Source: Leucobacter muris
Lineage (GTDB): Bacteria; Actinomycetota; Actinomycetes; Actinomycetales; Microbacteriaceae
Length of the DNA: 64,000 bases
Direction of reading: 5' to 3'
Assembly: GCF_004028235.1 (NCBI RefSeq)
Contig: NZ_CP035037.1
Span: 2,914,001 to 2,978,000 of the forward strand
The position numbers were made by a program, and so were the translations under genes. Shown one piece after another: positions 49,647 through 63,308 of this stretch. The number at the start of each line of letters is the position of its first letter. Positions within the stretch are counted from its first letter, which is position 1. The notes below the pieces were generated by a model that was not told where the DNA came from, ran no database searches, and saw nothing but the letters and a program-made list of their open reading frames with translations.

Positions 49647-51410
49647 CTACCCGACGCGGGTGGCCACCACGACGGTGTCGTCGAGCAGGTCCTCGGCGCC
49701 GTCGGGGCCGGTCGCCGGGCGGGTGCGGGTCTCGGCGGTCACCGTCCAGCGCTCGGGATCGAGGTCGAGCAGTGCGAGCTCGCTCTCCGGGCTGGGGAAC
49801 GGCCCGCAGTGGCCCTCCGCCCACGGGGGCGGGGCGCCGTGGGAGATCACCACGAGGCTGCCGCCGGGCGCGACCCGCCTGGCCGCGGCGCGCAGGATGC
49901 GCTCGCGCGGCAACTCGACGGGCGACTGCAGGAAGCTCGCCGTGACGAGGTCGAACCCCGTCGGGGATCCGTCGATCCGCTCGGGATCCGAGAGCCACTC
50001 GCCCAGGTCGGCCGCGATGAAGCGCGCCTCCGCGATCCCGCGCTCATCAGCGGCCGCAGAGGCCCGCGCGACCGCGGTCTCGGAGAGGTCGATGCCCGTG
50101 GCCCGCCATCCGCGCTCGGCCAGCCAGAGCACGTCGCCGCCCTCGCCGCAGCCGAGGTCGAGCGCGCTGCCCGGCCTGCGGTCGGCGACCGCGTCGGCGA
50201 GCGAGCGGTTGACGCGCCCCGACCAGATGCGGCCCGCATCGCCGTAGCGGCGCTCCCAGAATGCCACCGGGTCTTCGCCGGGATCGGGCGCGTCCGCCGC
50301 CGCCGGGTGCGGGTGGGCCCCGTGGCCGCCCTGGCTCTCGCGGCGCTCGCGGGCCCCCCGGCGATGGCCCTGCCCGTGCTGGTGCTCCGCAGCGCCCGCG
50401 GGTTCGTCGGAGCGGCGCCCGGCAGCGTCGGGGCGGACCGCCTCGACGGGACTCGGGGCGGCGTCGGCGGCGACGGCGATCTCGAAGTCGTCGTCGACGA
50501 GCGCCGCGTTCACCGCGGCACCGGCCAGGGTGCCCGCGCCCATCACGATCGGCACGGACGCCCCCGGGTTCACCGCGTTTCCCGCCGCCCAGATGCGCGG
50601 GTGGCTCGTGCGCCCCGTCGGGTCGACCGCGATGAAGGAGCCCATCGGCGTCTCCGAGCGATCGAGGTCGAGGCCGGCGAGGAAGCCGTCGTGGGGCACG
50701 AGGGCGCCGGCGGTGAAGACGGCGTCGATGCCGATCTCCCCGCGCGGGGTGCGCACGGCGGTGATCCCGGATCCGTCGCCGACGACCTCGGTGACGGGCT
50801 CCTCGACGAGGGTCACGCCGCGCGCTTCGAGCTCGCGGCGGGGCTCGTCGCCCAGTTCGCCGAGGCCGGCGGTGAACACGGTGAGGTCGTCGGTCCACTG
50901 GCGCAGCAGCCGTGCTTGGTGCAGGCCGAGGGGCGACGTCGTCAGCACCGCGAGGCGGCGCCCACGAACCTCCCAGCCGTGGCAGTAGGGGCAGTGCAGA
51001 ACCCCGCTGCCCCAGTGCTCGGCGAGACCGGGGATGGCGGGCAGTTCGTCGGCGAGGCCGGTCGCGACGACGAGGGCGCGCGTCTCGAGCACTTCGCCCG
51101 CCTCCAGCTCGACGTGCAGGGTGTCCGGCGATCCCGACCCCGATTCGTTCCCGTCGCGCACCGCGATCACCGATGCCGCGCGCAGCTCGACGCCGTAGCG
51201 CTCGACCTCGGCCCGGCCGCGCTCGAGCAGTTCGAGGGGCGGCGTGCCGTCGAGCCCGAGCACGTTGTGCATGTGCGAGGCGAAGCGGTTGCGCGGGCTG
51301 CCGGCGTCGAGCACGAGCGTGCGGCGCAGCGAGCGGCCGAGCGCCTGCGCTGCGCTGAGCCCGGCGGCCCCGCCGCCGATCACGATGGTGTCCCAGATTC
51401 GGTTCGTCAT
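49647..51410 (-). CDS. Thioredoxin-reductase-like oxidoreductase fused to a class I SAM methyltransferase
   Basis: 587 aa in one frame. Residues 1-~310: FAD/NAD(P)H oxidoreductase with IGGGAAGLSAAQALG (~11-25) and redox motif HCPYCHG (C140, C143). Residues ~330-385: hydrophilic linker rich in His and Arg (AEHQHGQGHRRG, GGHGAHPHP). Residues ~385-587: methyltransferase with SAM motif I ALDLGCGEGGDVLWLAERG (416-434) and ATGIDLS. The physiological link between the two activities is unknown; detoxification of a metalloid or xenobiotic is a guess. Divergent from an XRE-cupin regulator. Confidence 0.88.
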   Translation of the reverse strand: MTNRIWDTIVIGGGAAGLSAAQALGRSLRRTLVLDAGSPRNRFASHMHNVLGLDGTPPLELLERGRAEVERYGVELRAASVIAVRDGNESGSGSPDTLHVELEAGEVLETRALVVATGLADELPAIPGLAEHWGSGVLHCPYCHGWEVRGRRLAVLTTSPLGLHQARLLRQWTDDLTVFTAGLGELGDEPRRELEARGVTLVEEPVTEVVGDGSGITAVRTPRGEIGIDAVFTAGALVPHDGFLAGLDLDRSETPMGSFIAVDPTGRTSHPRIWAAGNAVNPGASVPIVMGAGTLAGAAVNAALVDDDFEIAVAADAAPSPVEAVRPDAAGRRSDEPAGAAEHQHGQGHRRGARERRESQGGHGAHPHPAAADAPDPGEDPVAFWERRYGDAGRIWSGRVNRSLADAVADRRPGSALDLGCGEGGDVLWLAERGWRATGIDLSETAVARASAAADERGIAEARFIAADLGEWLSDPERIDGSPTGFDLVTASFLQSPVELPRERILRAAARRVAPGGSLVVISHGAPPPWAEGHCGPFPSPESELALLDLDPERWTVTAETRTRPATGPDGAEDLLDDTVVVATRVG

Positions 51411-57423: not shown

Positions 57424-60400
57424 TCAGCCGGCGACGGCCGCGGCGACCTCGGCGAAGACCCCCGCCGCCCAGTCGCGCGCCGCCTCGGCGGCCGGGATCG
57501 AGCCGCCGGCGTCGTGCCGCCCGTACTCCCCCACTCGCGTCGCGCCGCACGCCTGCAGCGCCTCGTCGACGAGCTCGCTGCCCCGCGAGTAGGTGCGCTC
57601 GTAGCTGCGGTCGCCCATGCCGAAGACGGCGTAGCGCACGCCCGCGAGCTCCGGCCGGTCGTCCGTCAGCTCCCGCACGAAGGGCTGCGCCGCACTCGGC
57701 ACCTCGCCGTCGCCGTAGGTGGAGCAGATCACGAGGTGCATGCGCGACGGGTCGAGGTCGGCCGCGCGCACCTCGGCGAGATCGCGCACCACCAGGTCCG
57801 CTCCCTCGCCGAACGCGCGGGCGAGCTCGTCGGCCACGAGCTCGGCCCCGCCCGACTCGGTGCCGAAGAGGATCGTGGTGGGCGCCGCCGGCCCGATGCC
57901 CGATGCCGCACCCGTCTCGAGCGGTGGCAGTTCGAGGCCGGTGTCGGCCGCGGTCTCGAGCTGCGCTTCCCGGGTGGGCAGTTTCGCGCGTTCGCGACCG
58001 GGCGCGGCCGTGAGGCGCTCGCGCAGGTCGATGCGGCGCCAGCCGTCGAAGTCGGTCTCACCCGCGATCGGGGGCAGGCCGGCGGCCGACACGGTCACCG
58101 CTCCCGATTGGAGGTCGGCCGCGATGACGCGGGCGAGATCGCGGGCGTCGGCGCGCTGGTCCGGGATCGTGCCCTGCGGGCCGCGGCGCAGCCACCCGGC
58201 CGTGTAGAGGCCGGGCTCTACCCGCCCGTCGGGGTGCGCCCCCGGCTCGAGCGGGCTGCCGTCGTCGGCCGCGAAGCCGATCGCCGTGATGACGTCGTCG
58301 ACGGCGATCCTCGTCTCGCCCTCAGCTCCCCGGAACACCGCGGTCTCGACGCGCCCCTCGCCCTCGAGCCGCTCGGGCGCGAGCCCGAACCACCACTCGA
58401 TCGTGATGCGCGGCTCGGCTTCCCCCGCGGGTGCCCCGGGTCCCGCGGCACCCGCACCGCCAGCGCCGCCCGCACCCGCGCCCCGCGCGGTGAGCGCCCG
58501 CACGGCGTCGATGCGCGCGTCGCGGCCGTCGTCGGCGAGCTCGCCCGCCCCGTGCACGACGTGCCGCACGCCCGCGAGGCCCGCGAGCTCCCGCACCATG
58601 ACCGGGTCGAAGCGCGCGGTCGCCGGACCGCTGCGGCCCACCACGTGCACGGTGCGCACGCGCTCGGTGAAGCGCCGGTGCGCGGCGTCGTCGATGTCGG
58701 ATCCCTCGAGGCCTGCGGCGTCGCGCGCGATGAGCCGCACGATGTCCATGGCCACGTTGCCGTGGCCGACGACGGCGACGCGCTCCCCGAGCGGGTCGGG
58801 CACGGGCTCGTCGGGGTGGCAGTTGAGGAAGCGGGTCACCGCGCCCGCCCCGCGCACACGGACGAGGTCTGCGCCGGGAACGGGGAGCCGCGCGTCGCGG
58901 TGCATGCCGGTCGCGAGCACCACCGCGTCGTACGCTCCGCGCAGGTCTTCGAGCGAGACGTCGGCGCCGACGCGGCAGCTGCCGCGGAATCGCACGCCCT
59001 CCTCGGTGAAGAGCCGATCGAACTGCCGGGCCACGGCCTTCGTGCCCTGATGATCGGCGGCGACCCCGTAGCGCACGAGGCCGTAGGGCGTGGGCAGCTC
59101 GTCGAACACCTCGATCGGCGCGGTGGGGAAGCTGCGTCGCATCGCCTGGGCGGTGAAGCTGCCCGCGGGGCCGGATCCCACGATCGCGACGCGCGGCGCC
59201 GCCTCGCCCGCTGCGGCAGCAGCGGGGCGGGCCGAGCGGCGGCCGCTCCAGGCGACGGGCAGCTTCGTCATGCCCCGGAACACCCACCCGCCGATCTCGG
59301 CCGGATCGTCTTCCACGAGCGAGAGGCCGTCGAGCGATGAGAAGAGGAGCGGCAGCGCGACCTCCGCGACCTCGGCTCGGGCGGCCCAGGCGCCGAGGCA
59401 CACGTGCACGCCCTTGCCGAAGGCGAGGTGCGGCTTGGACTCGCGGCGGATGTCGAACGACGCGGGATCGTCCCAGACCCGCTCGTCGCGGTTGGCGGAG
59501 AGGATGCAGATGCCGAGGCGGGCGCCCGCGGGCAGCCGCACGCCGACGAGGTCGGTGTCGCGCGTCACCTGGCGCGAGTAGAGGCCGATGGGCGCCACCC
59601 ACCGGATCGTCTCGTCGAAGACGGCCTGCCACAGCGAGGGGTCGCTCTCGACGGCGGCGCGCTGCTCGGGGTGGGTGAGCAGCCCCCAGGCGGCGACGCC
59701 GAGGGCGTCGCGGGGCTCGTTGAGGCCGCCGCCGATCGTCATCTTCACGTTGGCCCGGATGCGGTCGAGCGGCATCTCGTAGTCGGGGATGCGCAGCAGC
59801 TGCGAGAGCAGCGACTCGTTCGGGTTGGCGGCGTGCCACGCGAGCATCTCGTCGAGCGCCGCGTCGACCTCGTCGAACGACTGCTTGCCGAGCGCCCACA
59901 CGTCGGGGTCGTCGGCGTAGTTGCCGGTGGCGTCGATCATCGTCTGCGACCAGCGCTGCAGATCCTGCTGGGTGGCGTTGTGCAGGCCGATGAGCTCGCG
60001 CAGGCTCTCGGCGGCGAAGGGGGCCGAGAAGTCCCAGATCAGGTCTGCGCCGGGGCCCTTCGCGATGAACTCCTCGAGGTAGCGCTCGGCGTTGCGCTGG
60101 AACTTCGACTTCCAGACCCGCTGCACGGCGCCCGGGCGCAGCGCCGGCTGCCAGGCCTTGCGCTCGATGTAGTGCTCGGGGTCGTCCCGGCGCAGCATCG
60201 AGTGGCCCATCGCGCGGATCTGCAGCGAACCCTGTTCGTCGGCCGAGAAGATCTGCTGGTCGAGCTCGGTCTCGTGCACGGCCTCGTAGGAGGTGATGAG
60301 GTAGCGGCCGACCTGCGGCACCCAGTGCACGCCGCCCTCGGCGCGCAGCCGCTCGTAGATGGGGAATGGATCGCGATAGAGATCGGGAATGGTCACCCAG

Positions 60401-60429
60401 TCGGCGACCGGAGCCTCGTTGCTCGTCAT
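57424..60429 (-). CDS. Self-sufficient cytochrome P450: P450 - adrenodoxin-reductase-like - flavodoxin fusion
   Basis: 1001 aa in one frame with three modules. (1) P450, ~1-395: ExxR at E273-R276, heme loop FGKGVHVCLG with ligand C344, I-helix IGGGLNEPRD (232-241) with Glu-Pro where Glu/Asp-Thr is usual. By memory the domain resembles GcoA (CYP255), including the C-terminal WVFRG. (2) Adrenodoxin-reductase-like FAD/NADPH module, ~411-785: VAIVGSGPAGS (414-424), VVGHGNVAMD (553-562), GWLRRGPQGTIPDQRADA (745-762), with an Ala/Gly-rich insert near 650-670. (3) Flavodoxin, ~850-1001: ILFGTESGGAE, CSTYGDGEVP, FGMGDRSYE. Electrons should pass NADPH-FAD-FMN-heme. Divergent from the HtaA-like and LysR genes. 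Confidence 0.93.
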   Translation of the reverse strand: MTSNEAPVADWVTIPDLYRDPFPIYERLRAEGGVHWVPQVGRYLITSYEAVHETELDQQIFSADEQGSLQIRAMGHSMLRRDDPEHYIERKAWQPALRPGAVQRVWKSKFQRNAERYLEEFIAKGPGADLIWDFSAPFAAESLRELIGLHNATQQDLQRWSQTMIDATGNYADDPDVWALGKQSFDEVDAALDEMLAWHAANPNESLLSQLLRIPDYEMPLDRIRANVKMTIGGGLNEPRDALGVAAWGLLTHPEQRAAVESDPSLWQAVFDETIRWVAPIGLYSRQVTRDTDLVGVRLPAGARLGICILSANRDERVWDDPASFDIRRESKPHLAFGKGVHVCLGAWAARAEVAEVALPLLFSSLDGLSLVEDDPAEIGGWVFRGMTKLPVAWSGRRSARPAAAAAGEAAPRVAIVGSGPAGSFTAQAMRRSFPTAPIEVFDELPTPYGLVRYGVAADHQGTKAVARQFDRLFTEEGVRFRGSCRVGADVSLEDLRGAYDAVVLATGMHRDARLPVPGADLVRVRGAGAVTRFLNCHPDEPVPDPLGERVAVVGHGNVAMDIVRLIARDAAGLEGSDIDDAAHRRFTERVRTVHVVGRSGPATARFDPVMVRELAGLAGVRHVVHGAGELADDGRDARIDAVRALTARGAGAGGAGGAGAAGPGAPAGEAEPRITIEWWFGLAPERLEGEGRVETAVFRGAEGETRIAVDDVITAIGFAADDGSPLEPGAHPDGRVEPGLYTAGWLRRGPQGTIPDQRADARDLARVIAADLQSGAVTVSAAGLPPIAGETDFDGWRRIDLRERLTAAPGRERAKLPTREAQLETAADTGLELPPLETGAASGIGPAAPTTILFGTESGGAELVADELARAFGEGADLVVRDLAEVRAADLDPSRMHLVICSTYGDGEVPSAAQPFVRELTDDRPELAGVRYAVFGMGDRSYERTYSRGSELVDEALQACGATRVGEYGRHDAGGSIPAAEAARDWAAGVFAEVAAAVAG

Positions 60430-60466
60430 GGCGCACCTCGTCGTTCTGAACTGCCGTACGCCTTCG

Positions 60467-60537
60467 AGTATGCTCGGCGCATAAACGAAACAAAAGCGGA
60501 ATTATCTGCATTGTTTATTCGATAACGTGCAACAATA
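60467..60537. promoter_or_regulatory. Divergent P450/HtaA control region with LysR-type inverted repeats
   Basis: AT-rich relative to its surroundings. Inverted repeats: ATAAAC (60481-60486)/GTTTAT (60513-60518) and TTATC (60502-60506)/GATAA (60521-60525). The minus-strand -10 CATACT is at 60467-60472 for the P450 gene. The plus-strand -10-like AACAAT (60532-60537) lies 7 nt before ATG 60544, i.e. a leaderless start for the HtaA-like gene. TTATCTGCAT (60502-60511) recurs as TTAACTGCAT before the MHS gene. Confidence 0.5.
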
Positions 60538-60543
60538 GGCGGC

Positions 60544-61044
60544 ATGATCCGCACCTCGTCCGAAGGCCCCGCGCTCGAGTGGGGTATCAAGCGCTCCCTC
60601 GTGCAGTACGTGATCGGCATGCCCGACGGCTCGGCGAGCGTGCTCCCTCCCGCCCGGGTGGCCCGCGAGGGGTTCCGCTTCCCGGCGGCGGACCCCGCTC
60701 GGACCACTGACCCCGATGCCGCCGGCGTCTCCGACCGAACGCTCCGCTTCACCGGAACGGTGACGCTCAGCGGGCACAGCGGCATGCTGAGGCTCGTGTT
60801 CGAGGACCCCTGGCTGGTGCCGGGTGCGCGCCCCGGCCAGGCGTGGGAGCTCACGATCGCAGACCCCTACGAACCGGGATCGCGCCTGGCTTTCGCCGCC
60901 ATCGAGCGCCTCGAACTCGACGCGGCCGGCGGCGGCGCAGCGAACGGCACCCGCCTCACCGCGGCGGGCGCCGACCTCTTCGCCTCGGGTCCCTACGCCG
61001 CCGGCACCGAGCTCGACGACCCGGTGGTGGTCGCGCGTGGCTGA
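60544..61044 (+). CDS. HtaA-domain (heme-binding-type) protein without signal peptide
   Basis: 166 aa. The sequence follows the HtaA domain: LEWGIKRSLVQYV at the start, FRFP, LRFTGTVTLSGHSGMLRLVF and DPW. HtaA domains of corynebacteria bind heme through a Tyr and a nearby His; the equivalents here would be Y22 and H78. Those proteins are secreted or cell-wall bound. This one has no signal peptide or membrane segment and is probably cytoplasmic. Next to a P450 it could hold or deliver heme, or bind the substrate. The function is inference; the domain call is by eye. It overlaps the LysR gene by 8 bp. Confidence 0.75.
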   Translation: MIRTSSEGPALEWGIKRSLVQYVIGMPDGSASVLPPARVAREGFRFPAADPARTTDPDAAGVSDRTLRFTGTVTLSGHSGMLRLVFEDPWLVPGARPGQAWELTIADPYEPGSRLAFAAIERLELDAAGGGAANGTRLTAAGADLFASGPYAAGTELDDPVVVARG

Positions 61045-61960
61045 ACCGCTCGACGCGCCCCTGCCCGGGTTCACCCTGCGCCAGCTGGCCTACTTCGTCG
61101 CGGCCGCCGACGAGGGCACCATCACGGGCGCCGCCGAGCTGCTGCGCGTCTCGCCCTCGGCGATGTCCGACGCCATCACCGAGCTCGAATCGGTCATGCG
61201 CGAGCGGCTGTGCGTGCGCCGCCGGGCCCACGGGCTCACCCTCACGCCCGCGGGGGCTCAGCTCGTGCGCCACGCCCGGCTCATGCTCGCCGAGGCCGAG
61301 GAGCTGCGCCGCTCCGTCGGGGGCGGCGGGCAGCTGTCCGGCCCCGTGGTGATCGGCTGCTATCCGACGCTCGCGCCGACCGTCCTGCCGCCGCTGCTGC
61401 AGGACTTCGCCGAGCTGCACCCGCACATCGACCTCTCGATCCGCGAGGCGACGCAGGATCGGCTGGCCGAGGATCTCGCGTCGGGCCGCATCGACGTGGC
61501 GTTCGTCTACGACATGCTGGTGCCCGGCGACACCGAGCGCGCCAGGCTCTACGAGCTGCAGGCGCACGCGCTGCTCGCCGCCGACCACCCGCTCGCGGGG
61601 CGAGCGAGCGTGCGGCTCGACGAGCTCGTGGGCGACGACCTGATCCTGCTCGATGCGCCGCCCTCGAGCGAGCACACCCTCTCCGTGTTCGCCGAGCGCG
61701 GTCTGCGCCCGCGCATCAGGCATCGCACGGCGAGCTACGAGGTGGTGCGCACGCTCGTCGCCCGCGGCCTCGGGTACGGCGTCCTGGTGACGCGGGTCGC
61801 CAACCCCGAGAGCTACGAGGGCCTGCCCCTCGTCGCGAAGACGATCGTTCCGCCGGTGCGCCCGGTCGCGATCGACATGATCTGGGCTCCGGATCGGCCG
61901 GTCCCCGCGCGAACCCGGGCCCTGATCGAGTTCGCGCGGGGCGTCGCCTGGCCCTCGTGA
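61037..61960 (+). CDS. LysR-family transcriptional regulator
   Basis: 307 aa. N-terminal winged HTH (FTLRQLAYFVAAADEGTITG, AAELLRVSPSAMSDAITELE, LTLTPAGAQLV) and a LysR substrate-binding domain (VVIGCYPTLAPTVLPPLLQD, DVAFVYDMLVPGD, VRTLVARGLGYGVLV). GTG 61037 overlaps the HtaA-like gene, so both are co-expressed. Likely activator of the divergent P450 gene and of the MHS transporter in response to the pathway substrate. Confidence 0.9.
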   Translation: MAEPLDAPLPGFTLRQLAYFVAAADEGTITGAAELLRVSPSAMSDAITELESVMRERLCVRRRAHGLTLTPAGAQLVRHARLMLAEAEELRRSVGGGGQLSGPVVIGCYPTLAPTVLPPLLQDFAELHPHIDLSIREATQDRLAEDLASGRIDVAFVYDMLVPGDTERARLYELQAHALLAADHPLAGRASVRLDELVGDDLILLDAPPSSEHTLSVFAERGLRPRIRHRTASYEVVRTLVARGLGYGVLVTRVANPESYEGLPLVAKTIVPPVRPVAIDMIWAPDRPVPARTRALIEFARGVAWPS

Positions 61961-61970
61961 GGGCCGCGGG

Positions 61971-63308
61971 TCAGACCGTGGCCGCCTCCCGCTGCGGCTC
62001 CTCGGAGCGCTCGATGAGCGGGGTGCCCCAGCGGTCCTTGATGACGAGCACGGCCACGAGCGAGATGGCGCCCATGACGGCGAGGTAGATCGACACGGAT
62101 CCGATCCACCCGGTGCTCTGCTGCAGCCAGGTCGCGATCGTGGGGGCGAACGCGCCGCCGAGGATCGCGCCGAGCGCGTAGGAGAGGGAGACTCCCGAGT
62201 AGCGCACCCGCGAGGGGAAGATCTCGGCGAAGTACGCGGCCTGCGGGCCGTAGGTGAGTCCGGTGGACACCATCCAGGCGGCGAGCGAGACGGCCACCAT
62301 CGCCACGATCTGCGTGTCGACGAGCAGGAAGAGCGGGAACGCCCACAGGATCTGCAGGGCGTAGCCGACGAGATACACCTTGCGGCGGCTCTGCCAGCGG
62401 TCCGACAGCCAGCCGCCGAGCAGCGTGGTGAGCGCCCACACCGCCGAGGCGAGCGTGACGCACCACAGCACCGCCGTGCGGTCCATGCCGTGCACGGTCG
62501 TGGCGTACGAGAGCACGTAGCCGCCCGTCGACATGTAGCCGGCGGCGTTGTTGCCCGCGAAGGTGAGGGCGACGAGGATCACGAGCCACCAGTGCTTCTT
62601 CAGCAGCTCCACGAGCGGCATCTTGGAGCGGGCCTTGCTCTCGCGCAGCTCGAGGAACACGGGGCTCTCCTCGACCGAGCGGCGGATGATGAAGCCCACC
62701 ACGAGCAGCACGACGCCGATGAGGAACGGGATGCGCCAGCCGAACTCGAGGAAGCCCTCGGGGCCGTAGGCCGCGGTGGTGATGGCGAGCACGCCCGAGG
62801 CGAGCAGCATGCCGAAGGGCACGCCGAGCTGCGGCGCCGAGCCGAACAGCCCGCGCTTGCCGTCGGGGGCGTGCTCCACGGCCATGAGCGCCGCGCCGCC
62901 CCACTCCCCGCCGGCCGAGAAGCCCTGCAGGATGCGCAGCAGCACGAGCAGCACCGGCGCGAGCACACCCACCTGCGCGTAGGTCGGCAGCACGCCGATG
63001 AGCGTGGTCGCGGCGCCCATGAGCACGAGGGTCATGACGAGCATGGCCCGGCGCCCGACGCGGTCGCCGAGGTGCCCGGCGACGATGGCTCCGAGGGGTC
63101 GGAACAGGAAGCTGATGCCGACCGTCGCGAACGAGACGAGCAGCGAGGCCTGCTGACCCAGCGGCTCGAAGAAGAGCTGGGCGAACACGAGCGCGGCCGT
63201 GTTCGCGTAGATGAAGAAGTCGTACCACTCGATGGTGGTGCCGACCATGGTGGCGATGGCGACGCGGCGGCTTTCGCGACGCGGGCGGCTCGGTGCCGAC
63301 GTGGACAT
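61971..63308 (-). CDS. MFS transporter, metabolite:H+ symporter (MHS) family
   Basis: 445 aa, 12 helices. MHS hallmark MVGTTIEWYDFFIYANTAAL, loop motif GHLGDRVGRRAML, then GFSAGGEWGGAALMAVEHAP and the cytoplasmic RRSVEESPVFLELRE. Relatives carry shikimate, alpha-ketoglutarate, aromatic acids or betaines. ATG 63308 has AAGGGAG upstream. Convergent with the LysR gene (10 nt apart) and sharing a promoter word with the P450 region, so it probably imports the P450 substrate or inducer. Confidence 0.9.
   Translation of the reverse strand: MSTSAPSRPRRESRRVAIATMVGTTIEWYDFFIYANTAALVFAQLFFEPLGQQASLLVSFATVGISFLFRPLGAIVAGHLGDRVGRRAMLVMTLVLMGAATTLIGVLPTYAQVGVLAPVLLVLLRILQGFSAGGEWGGAALMAVEHAPDGKRGLFGSAPQLGVPFGMLLASGVLAITTAAYGPEGFLEFGWRIPFLIGVVLLVVGFIIRRSVEESPVFLELRESKARSKMPLVELLKKHWWLVILVALTFAGNNAAGYMSTGGYVLSYATTVHGMDRTAVLWCVTLASAVWALTTLLGGWLSDRWQSRRKVYLVGYALQILWAFPLFLLVDTQIVAMVAVSLAAWMVSTGLTYGPQAAYFAEIFPSRVRYSGVSLSYALGAILGGAFAPTIATWLQQSTGWIGSVSIYLAVMGAISLVAVLVIKDRWGTPLIERSEEPQREAATV

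Follow-up and report, generated by a model that had tools for sequence, protein, structure and literature searches.

Which kind of P450 enzyme is encoded by a single 1001-codon frame of Leucobacter muris, where did it come from, and what does it oxidise? The frame begins with an ATG and occupies positions 57424–60429, on the minus strand, of a 64,000-nucleotide stretch of the L. muris genome (contig NZ_CP035037.1; hereafter the window). It encodes a P450-FdR-flavodoxin fusion (FdR, the reductase), and the coordinates of its parts given below all refer to the minus strand. A sequence-only reading had described the frame as a heme domain (with C344), a complete adrenodoxin-reductase-like module for flavin adenine dinucleotide (FAD) and a full C-terminal flavodoxin, in this order and without naming the strand; each of these assignments is borne out by the present analysis. 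Judged from its sequence, the fusion is most likely a catalytically self-sufficient P450 monooxygenase, and as an explanation of the whole we lean towards an enzyme that would O-demethylate homovanillate-type acids into the 3,4-dihydroxyphenylacetate pathway.

One chain with heme, FAD and FMN domains

A domain search, proposed together with the earlier reading, finds three Pfam families in the chain at E 0.001: p450 (best stretch 267–354), Pyr_redox_2 (413–563) and Flavodoxin_1 (853–975), each scoring over its own cut-off. No further Pfam domain is found in the 1001 residues at this threshold, and a module of cytochrome P450 reductase (CPR) or PFOR type is rejected because these three are the only families called. 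Sequence comparison with solved structures aligns residues 5–395 with the P450 of 6g71 and residues 409–817 with adrenodoxin reductase (1cjc); the last 156 residues best match cindoxin (4oxx), followed by MioC and the flavin mononucleotide (FMN) domains of P450 reductases and BM3. The modules follow one another in the order heme-FAD-FMN. An AlphaFold2 model built from alignment A1 (the query and 44 of the 120 listed database matches) has a mean predicted local distance difference test score (pLDDT) of 79.9 and a predicted template modelling score (pTM) of 0.57, and its individual domains are predicted to fold with fair confidence. In a Foldseek search with this model CYP1232A24 is the top match (61% identity), and FprA and adrenodoxin reductase come next; the 50 matches listed also include two O-demethylases, GcoA and SyoA.

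An assembly join of two genes, the finding that the sequence-only reading had named as able to overturn it, is ruled out by the single 3.21-Mb contig that makes up the genome, by the presence of all three Pfam domains in 119 of the 120 listed database relatives, and by 68 of 74 surveyed loci with one frame of at least 900 residues. The listed relatives are the best of 278 matches to the fusion (64–97% identity); the remaining one, P0109, is missing just the Pyr_redox_2 call, and the nearest named relative among those listed is an L. chironomi protein (97%). The survey of architectures, likewise proposed earlier, searched a single genome of each species with two patterns for the heme domain. 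Of the 88 relatives that it gave, the best 80 were retained, and these lie in 74 loci; since both patterns were taken from fused proteins, 68/74 is not the share of fused forms among all CYP1232-type P450s. All 68 frames carry P450 motifs and 67 also match both flavin-domain patterns. They come from 21 named genera, with two further labels unplaced, 60 loci belonging to Actinomycetota and 8 to Halomonas-type Gammaproteobacteria (Halomonas, Kushneria, Larsenimonas, Terasakiispira), and the fusion is accordingly a widespread family and not a one-off.

The non-intact loci comprise three with fusion pieces in different frames (L108, L110, L118), one with a broken fusion (L122), one on a 3.1-kb contig (L099) and one in which the match is limited to residues 7–424 (L120). 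The split or broken copies (L108, L110, L118, L122) are what could be said for an artefact, be it a frame made by assembly or a fusion without function, but the intact frames of the locus survey already refute it and its probability is practically nil. Selection argues against it as well. Between the window copy and those of L106, L049, L050 and L053, the ratio of non-synonymous to synonymous substitution rates (dN/dS) is 0.06–0.27 for the heme domain, 0.19–0.42 for the reductase and 0.20–0.38 for the flavodoxin, and because it does not exceed 0.42 in any domain in these four comparisons, all three parts are kept. The Leucobacter massiliensis copy (L108:10001–13106), with a P450 and a reductase-flavodoxin protein (600 residues, P0241) in two frames, is a natural split.

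The heme domain (residues 1–396; 59242–60429) is 61% identical to 6g71 across 397 alignment columns, above the 55% identity to a member by which CYP subfamilies are named and so within the range of CYP1232A, the name itself resting with the nomenclature committee. Its presumed heme-thiolate ligand C344 (59398–59400), within FGKGVHVCLG, is invariant in the 45 sequences of alignment A1, as are the FAD motif, the GxGNVAxD motif and much of the FMN loop. At the I-helix place where most P450s have an acid-alcohol pair, the fusion has NEPRD (residues 237–241; 59707–59721), which is also present in 6g71, in 125 of 126 database relatives of 940–1200 residues and in all 112 stand-alone relatives examined; the Glu-Pro of this motif is common to the fusion, 6g71, SyoA and GcoA.

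The reductase domain (residues 409–830; 57940–59205) is assigned to the adrenodoxin reductase/FprA type by Pfam and by its matches to the solved structures 1cjc and 1lqt. It has the fold of that family together with the FAD-binding motif GSGPAG (residues 418–423; 59161–59178) and the NAD(P)H-binding motif GHGNVAMD (residues 555–562; 58744–58767), both placed by alignment and structure comparison. In adrenodoxin reductase and FprA an Arg-Arg pair binds the NADPH phosphate; at its place the fusion has R599-S600 (58630–58635). S600 is invariant in alignment A1, and of the 68 fused loci a pattern reads the site in 38, with Ser in 37 (the other 30 are unmatched). Two stand-alone flavodoxin-paired reductases also carry GRS (a third gave no pattern match), and the Arg-to-Ser change is therefore rejected as a hallmark of the fusion. 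With Arg-Ser at this site, and a Ser that stand-alone reductases share, the fusion could prefer either NADPH or NADH. An Ala/Gly-rich loop within the reductase (about residues 653–672; 58414–58473) has low model confidence.

The C-terminal flavodoxin (residues 850–1001; 57427–57882) is cindoxin/MioC-like by Pfam and structure matches and contains, by alignment, GTESGG (residues 856–861; 57847–57864), which we take to be the FMN phosphate loop. Two linkers join the domains, one at residues 397–408 (59206–59241; mostly pLDDT <50) and one at residues 831–849 (57883–57939; approximate bounds from the model). Between the last motif of the heme domain and the FAD motif lie 31 to 93 residues in the 68 fused loci, a variation expected of a linker. 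In chain order the FMN domain sits at the free C-terminus, next to the FAD domain. With these parts, electrons would very likely run from NAD(P)H through FAD and FMN to heme: NAD(P)H would reduce the FAD within the adrenodoxin-reductase-like domain, from which electrons would pass one at a time to the FMN of the flavodoxin, and the heme would activate O2. We infer that the flavodoxin, held by a single tether, would swing between the adjoining FAD domain and the heme domain at the far end of the chain.

Relation to known P450 systems and descent

The sequence-only reading had drawn its comparison with the parts of XplA and XplB, and on this point it needs correction. Because the heme domain is nearest to CYP1232A24 and the flavodoxin nearest to cindoxin, the fusion is on sequence grounds best described as a three-component system of P450cin/CYP1232 type in one chain, and an XplA-like origin is for the same reason not favoured. 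XplA is class VI in P450 numbering. It shares with the fusion a flavodoxin carrier served by a flavodoxin reductase, but the XplA flavodoxin is N-terminal and the reductase XplB a separate protein, whereas the flavodoxin of the fusion is C-terminal and the reductase lies within the chain. CYP1232A24 and CYP1232F1 of Arthrobacter sp. (6g71) resemble the fusion in heme sequence (61% identity) and in the NEPRD I-helix, and a review reports that these enzymes may be encoded together with a flavodoxin and a flavodoxin reductase in one gene cluster; the components are separate proteins there and one chain here. The P450cin system (class III in P450 numbering) consists of P450cin, cindoxin reductase and cindoxin. 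Like that system, which uses an FAD reductase and an FMN flavodoxin as carrier, the fusion is predicted from domain and structure matches to have both, and among solved structures its flavodoxin best matches cindoxin (4oxx), but P450cin works as three proteins and belongs to another P450 family, whereas the fusion is one frame.

The established single-chain enzymes differ in their reductases. P450 BM3 (CYP102A, class VIII) has the domain order heme-FMN-FAD and, like the fusion, holds heme, FAD and FMN in one chain; in BM3 the heme domain is followed by a CPR made up of a flavodoxin and an FAD/NADPH domain, whereas the FAD domain of the fusion is adrenodoxin-reductase-like, precedes the flavodoxin and includes no FNR-type Pfam domain, so that neither the CPR-type module nor the order of class VIII is found. 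CYP116B and P450 RhF (class VII) likewise begin with the heme domain and end with a carrier domain in one chain, but use an FMN reductase and a 2Fe-2S ferredoxin; Pfam finds no such domain in the fusion. GcoAB, an O-demethylase relative at about 30% identity, is described as two proteins, GcoB having 2Fe-2S and FAD domains and preferring NADH. LumU of Nocardioides simplex is described as a single-chain P450 of aromatic catabolism, but one of 81 kDa with heme, ferredoxin and ferredoxin reductase domains in place of flavodoxin.

Natural self-sufficient P450s are named as classes VII and VIII in two papers of 2025 (PMC12126322, PMC11889516), one of which says 'mainly'. Searches of an open-access library found no description of the P450-FdR-flavodoxin architecture, in line with the earlier statement that no characterised example was known; this is weak evidence, as PMC9687028 cites the CYP1232 work under other wording. 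Database names such as 'cytochrome P450/flavodoxin' look automatic. The fusion probably represents a further natural self-sufficient class, a diflavin P450 in which an adrenodoxin-reductase-type FAD domain and a flavodoxin were joined independently of CPR, with FMN on a free C-terminal tether and not between heme and FAD. The same reading would have it arise once in Actinomycetota from a CYP1232-type three-component system and later reach Halomonadaceae, the homoprotocatechuate pathway perhaps being passed along with it. If this is right, the family would join classes VII and VIII while having a reductase of separate origin from the CPR type, and its stand-alone relatives and natural split copies would offer a direct test of how fusion and module order affect electron-transfer rate and coupling.

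A single origin is consistent with the phylogeny. A maximum-likelihood tree was built from the heme domains of 46 fused and 36 stand-alone proteins. In it the fused forms make up one side of a single branch (99/95), and all 200 bootstrap trees of this set require one fused/stand-alone change. The fused sample held at most two or three loci per genus (all of Halomonas) and five further fused proteins, the stand-alone sample 32 of the 120 matches listed by another search and four loci; P0121–P0129 were left out as likely truncated and the other 79 for size, and 'stand-alone' means only that a protein is complete at P450 length. The fused heme domains adjoin stand-alone Arthrobacter-type relatives in this tree, from which 6g71 is absent. 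In a quick tree rooted on two chosen remote rows, the fused forms fall within the stand-alone relatives, and all eight copies of Halomonas type group in one clade nested among actinobacterial fused forms, a nesting that suggests one transfer of the fusion between the phyla.

Its immediate source is less directly visible. A three-gene precursor with flavodoxin is plausible and fits the potential Arthrobacter cluster of the review; no such set was seen beside a CYP1232-type gene in the loci examined. The L. muris genome also holds an unfused set (L140:8054–11317) with a flavodoxin (46%), an adrenodoxin-type reductase (45%) and an adjoining remote P450 (26%), and on a Rhodococcus plasmid P450, reductase and flavodoxin are three neighbouring genes, that P450 being remote as well (24%). 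Two loci speak against so simple a descent: on a Rhodococcus opacus plasmid the genes after a nearer stand-alone P450 (50%) encode a 2Fe-2S protein and an FAD oxidoreductase and not a flavodoxin, and beside the stand-alone CYP1232-type gene of G534 (60%) neither an FdR nor a flavodoxin match is found within 19 kb. Carriage of the fusion itself by plasmids was considered and rejected: at E 1e-80 the fusion matches 24 plasmid records, in each case over less than 80% of the query.

Within Leucobacter the fusion occurs in one open frame (≥1006 residues) in at least 20 of 54 genomes, as a single match in 16 and as pieces within one frame in 4. Among 398 genomes of the family a one-frame fusion is present in 19, and additionally in G421 with a stop inside the match; the positive genomes fall in 4 of 85 genera, and the distribution is therefore patchy.

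Pathway and substrate

The sequence-only reading proposed no function. In part of the family the genes nearby suggest homoprotocatechuate (3,4-dihydroxyphenylacetate) catabolism: in 21 of the 68 fused loci, which carry seven genus labels from both phyla, hpaD of this pathway is no more than about 10 kb from the fusion, against a chance expectation of about 0.5 (our own estimate, which assumes one hpaD in about 3.3 Mb; the loci are not independent). Other matches near the fusion are to HpaH (21 loci), HpaI (20), HpaG-like (25) and HpaF (7), and at least one of HpaD/H/I/G/F or HpaD_Fe is near it in 25. HpaE matches at 30 loci, but as this model cross-matches other aldehyde dehydrogenases HpaD was relied on instead. 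NCBIfam cut-offs are exceeded by HpaD and HpaE in Agrococcus (L053) and by HpaD, HpaD_Fe, HpaE, HpaA and FeaR in Halomonas (L072); HpaH and HpaI of L053 and the HpaG-like protein of L086 have those models as their best match, below cut-off.

The fusion quite probably feeds 3,4-dihydroxyphenylacetate, in that the product of the heme domain would enter the homoprotocatechuate pathway. The likeliest reaction would be O-demethylation of homovanillate-type (3- and/or 4-methoxylated) phenylacetates with release of formaldehyde. We infer this substrate because of the NEPRD/Glu-Pro likeness of the I-helix combined with the hpa linkage. Three Leucobacter HpaB-1 proteins used as queries also count in favour of the explanation: they match none of the 68 intact fused loci and one of all 74, L122, with its broken fusion. 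The heme domain is most likely a CYP1232A-type aryl-acid oxygenase, and CYP1232A24 is said, in work by Klenk et al. from 2019, to O-demethylate homovanillate-type acids. O-demethylation is moderately favoured over ring hydroxylation. Such an enzyme would be a candidate for demethylating methoxylated aromatic acids from a single gene, and natural orthologues of it are numerous.

Several results weigh against this assignment. An identity of 61% to CYP1232A24 does not fix specificity, and the pTM of 0.57 leaves the packing between the domains open. No hpaD/H/I/G/F match lies near the fusion in 43 of the 68 loci (12 of the 68 span ≤20 kb), among them 11 of 12 Leucobacter loci and all 11 of Brevibacterium. 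In the L. muris genome hpaD and hpaE, both over cut-off, stand together with an hpaI-like gene about 760 kb from the fusion. HpaD exceeds its cut-off in 48 of the 54 Leucobacter genomes, with or without fusion, and being present in almost all of them makes the comparison of the two distributions inside the genus uninformative. HpaB-1, the usual hydroxylase step before HpaD, is over cut-off in three of these genomes, all of which carry the fusion too, so that the fusion is not a simple replacement of HpaB.

The same scarcity of HpaB-1 beside abundant HpaD nevertheless lends something to an unlikely but serious alternative, in which the same fused machine would hydroxylate the ring of 4- or 3-hydroxyphenylacetate to 3,4-dihydroxyphenylacetate in place of HpaBC. 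At L122 of Microbacterium testaceum (L122:5332–15433) two end pieces of the fusion are left in an otherwise similar LysR/HtaA/hpa cluster, with HpaB-1 (over cut-off) and a flavin reductase nearby. Self-sufficient CYP116B enzymes are also tied to 2-hydroxyphenylacetate catabolism in PMC8449657 and PMC11889516. The structurally solved relatives with the same I-helix Glu-Pro, however, are titled O-demethylases, and HpaB-1 and the fusion occur together in three Leucobacter genomes (the survey covered HpaB-1), and both points tell against ring hydroxylation.

Two further readings are each improbable. The missing acid-alcohol pair raises a heme domain that would act partly or mainly as a peroxygenase, the reductase serving as a low-rate or H2O2-making aid; the near-universal NEPRD of the long database relatives would suit this, as would the title of the SyoA paper, which mentions a rare class of heme peroxygenases. 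Yet the conservation of the FAD, NAD(P)H and FMN motifs and the purifying selection seen in both flavin domains speak against it, since a 600-residue reductase would decay if unused. The other reading, to which we give the same low credence, is that lineages without nearby hpa genes oxidise an unrelated aromatic acid imported by the neighbouring transporter, as the many loci lacking hpa matches and the transporter-like gene near the fusion in 35 of 68 would allow. Against it, the fused forms are one group in the tree, and the window heme domain is 83% identical to that of Agrococcus L053, whose copy is grouped with hpaD, hpaE (both over cut-off) and genes resembling hpaH and hpaI. O-demethylation into the homoprotocatechuate pathway thus remains the favoured reading.

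Neighbouring genes

A 114-bp intergenic region (60430–60543) is common to the fusion and to a divergent gene pair on the plus strand, a small HtaA-domain protein (60544–61044) and a LysR-type regulator (61037–61960); a transporter follows on the minus strand (61971–63308), its best NCBIfam match being metabolite/H+ symporter, below cut-off. A divergent LysR gene lies upstream of the fusion in 56 of the 68 fused loci, an HtaA gene within 2.5 kb of it in 27 and a gene like the window transporter near it in 35. HtaA domains bind heme, and heme supply to the P450 by the HtaA-domain protein is conceivable; lying between the LysR gene and the heme enzyme, this protein has no evident signal peptide when read by eye.

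Elsewhere, flavin-dependent hydroxylases of PRK08294 type exceed their cut-off at L072:7722–9599 and L053:20011–21900, occur near the fusion in 13 of the 68 loci from both phyla, and may act in the same pathway as the fusion. In L. chironomi (L106:3244–7419) an aldehyde dehydrogenase and, by eye, genes resembling TRAP transporter parts come next in this neighbourhood, and the L. muris genome seems the same there beyond the window end (L141:4781–7517); 8 of the 68 loci, Halomonas included, have a similar DctM-like gene close to the fusion. Within the window, a single frame at 49647–51410 seems, by eye, to combine a thioredoxin-reductase-like flavoprotein with a methyltransferase-like part.

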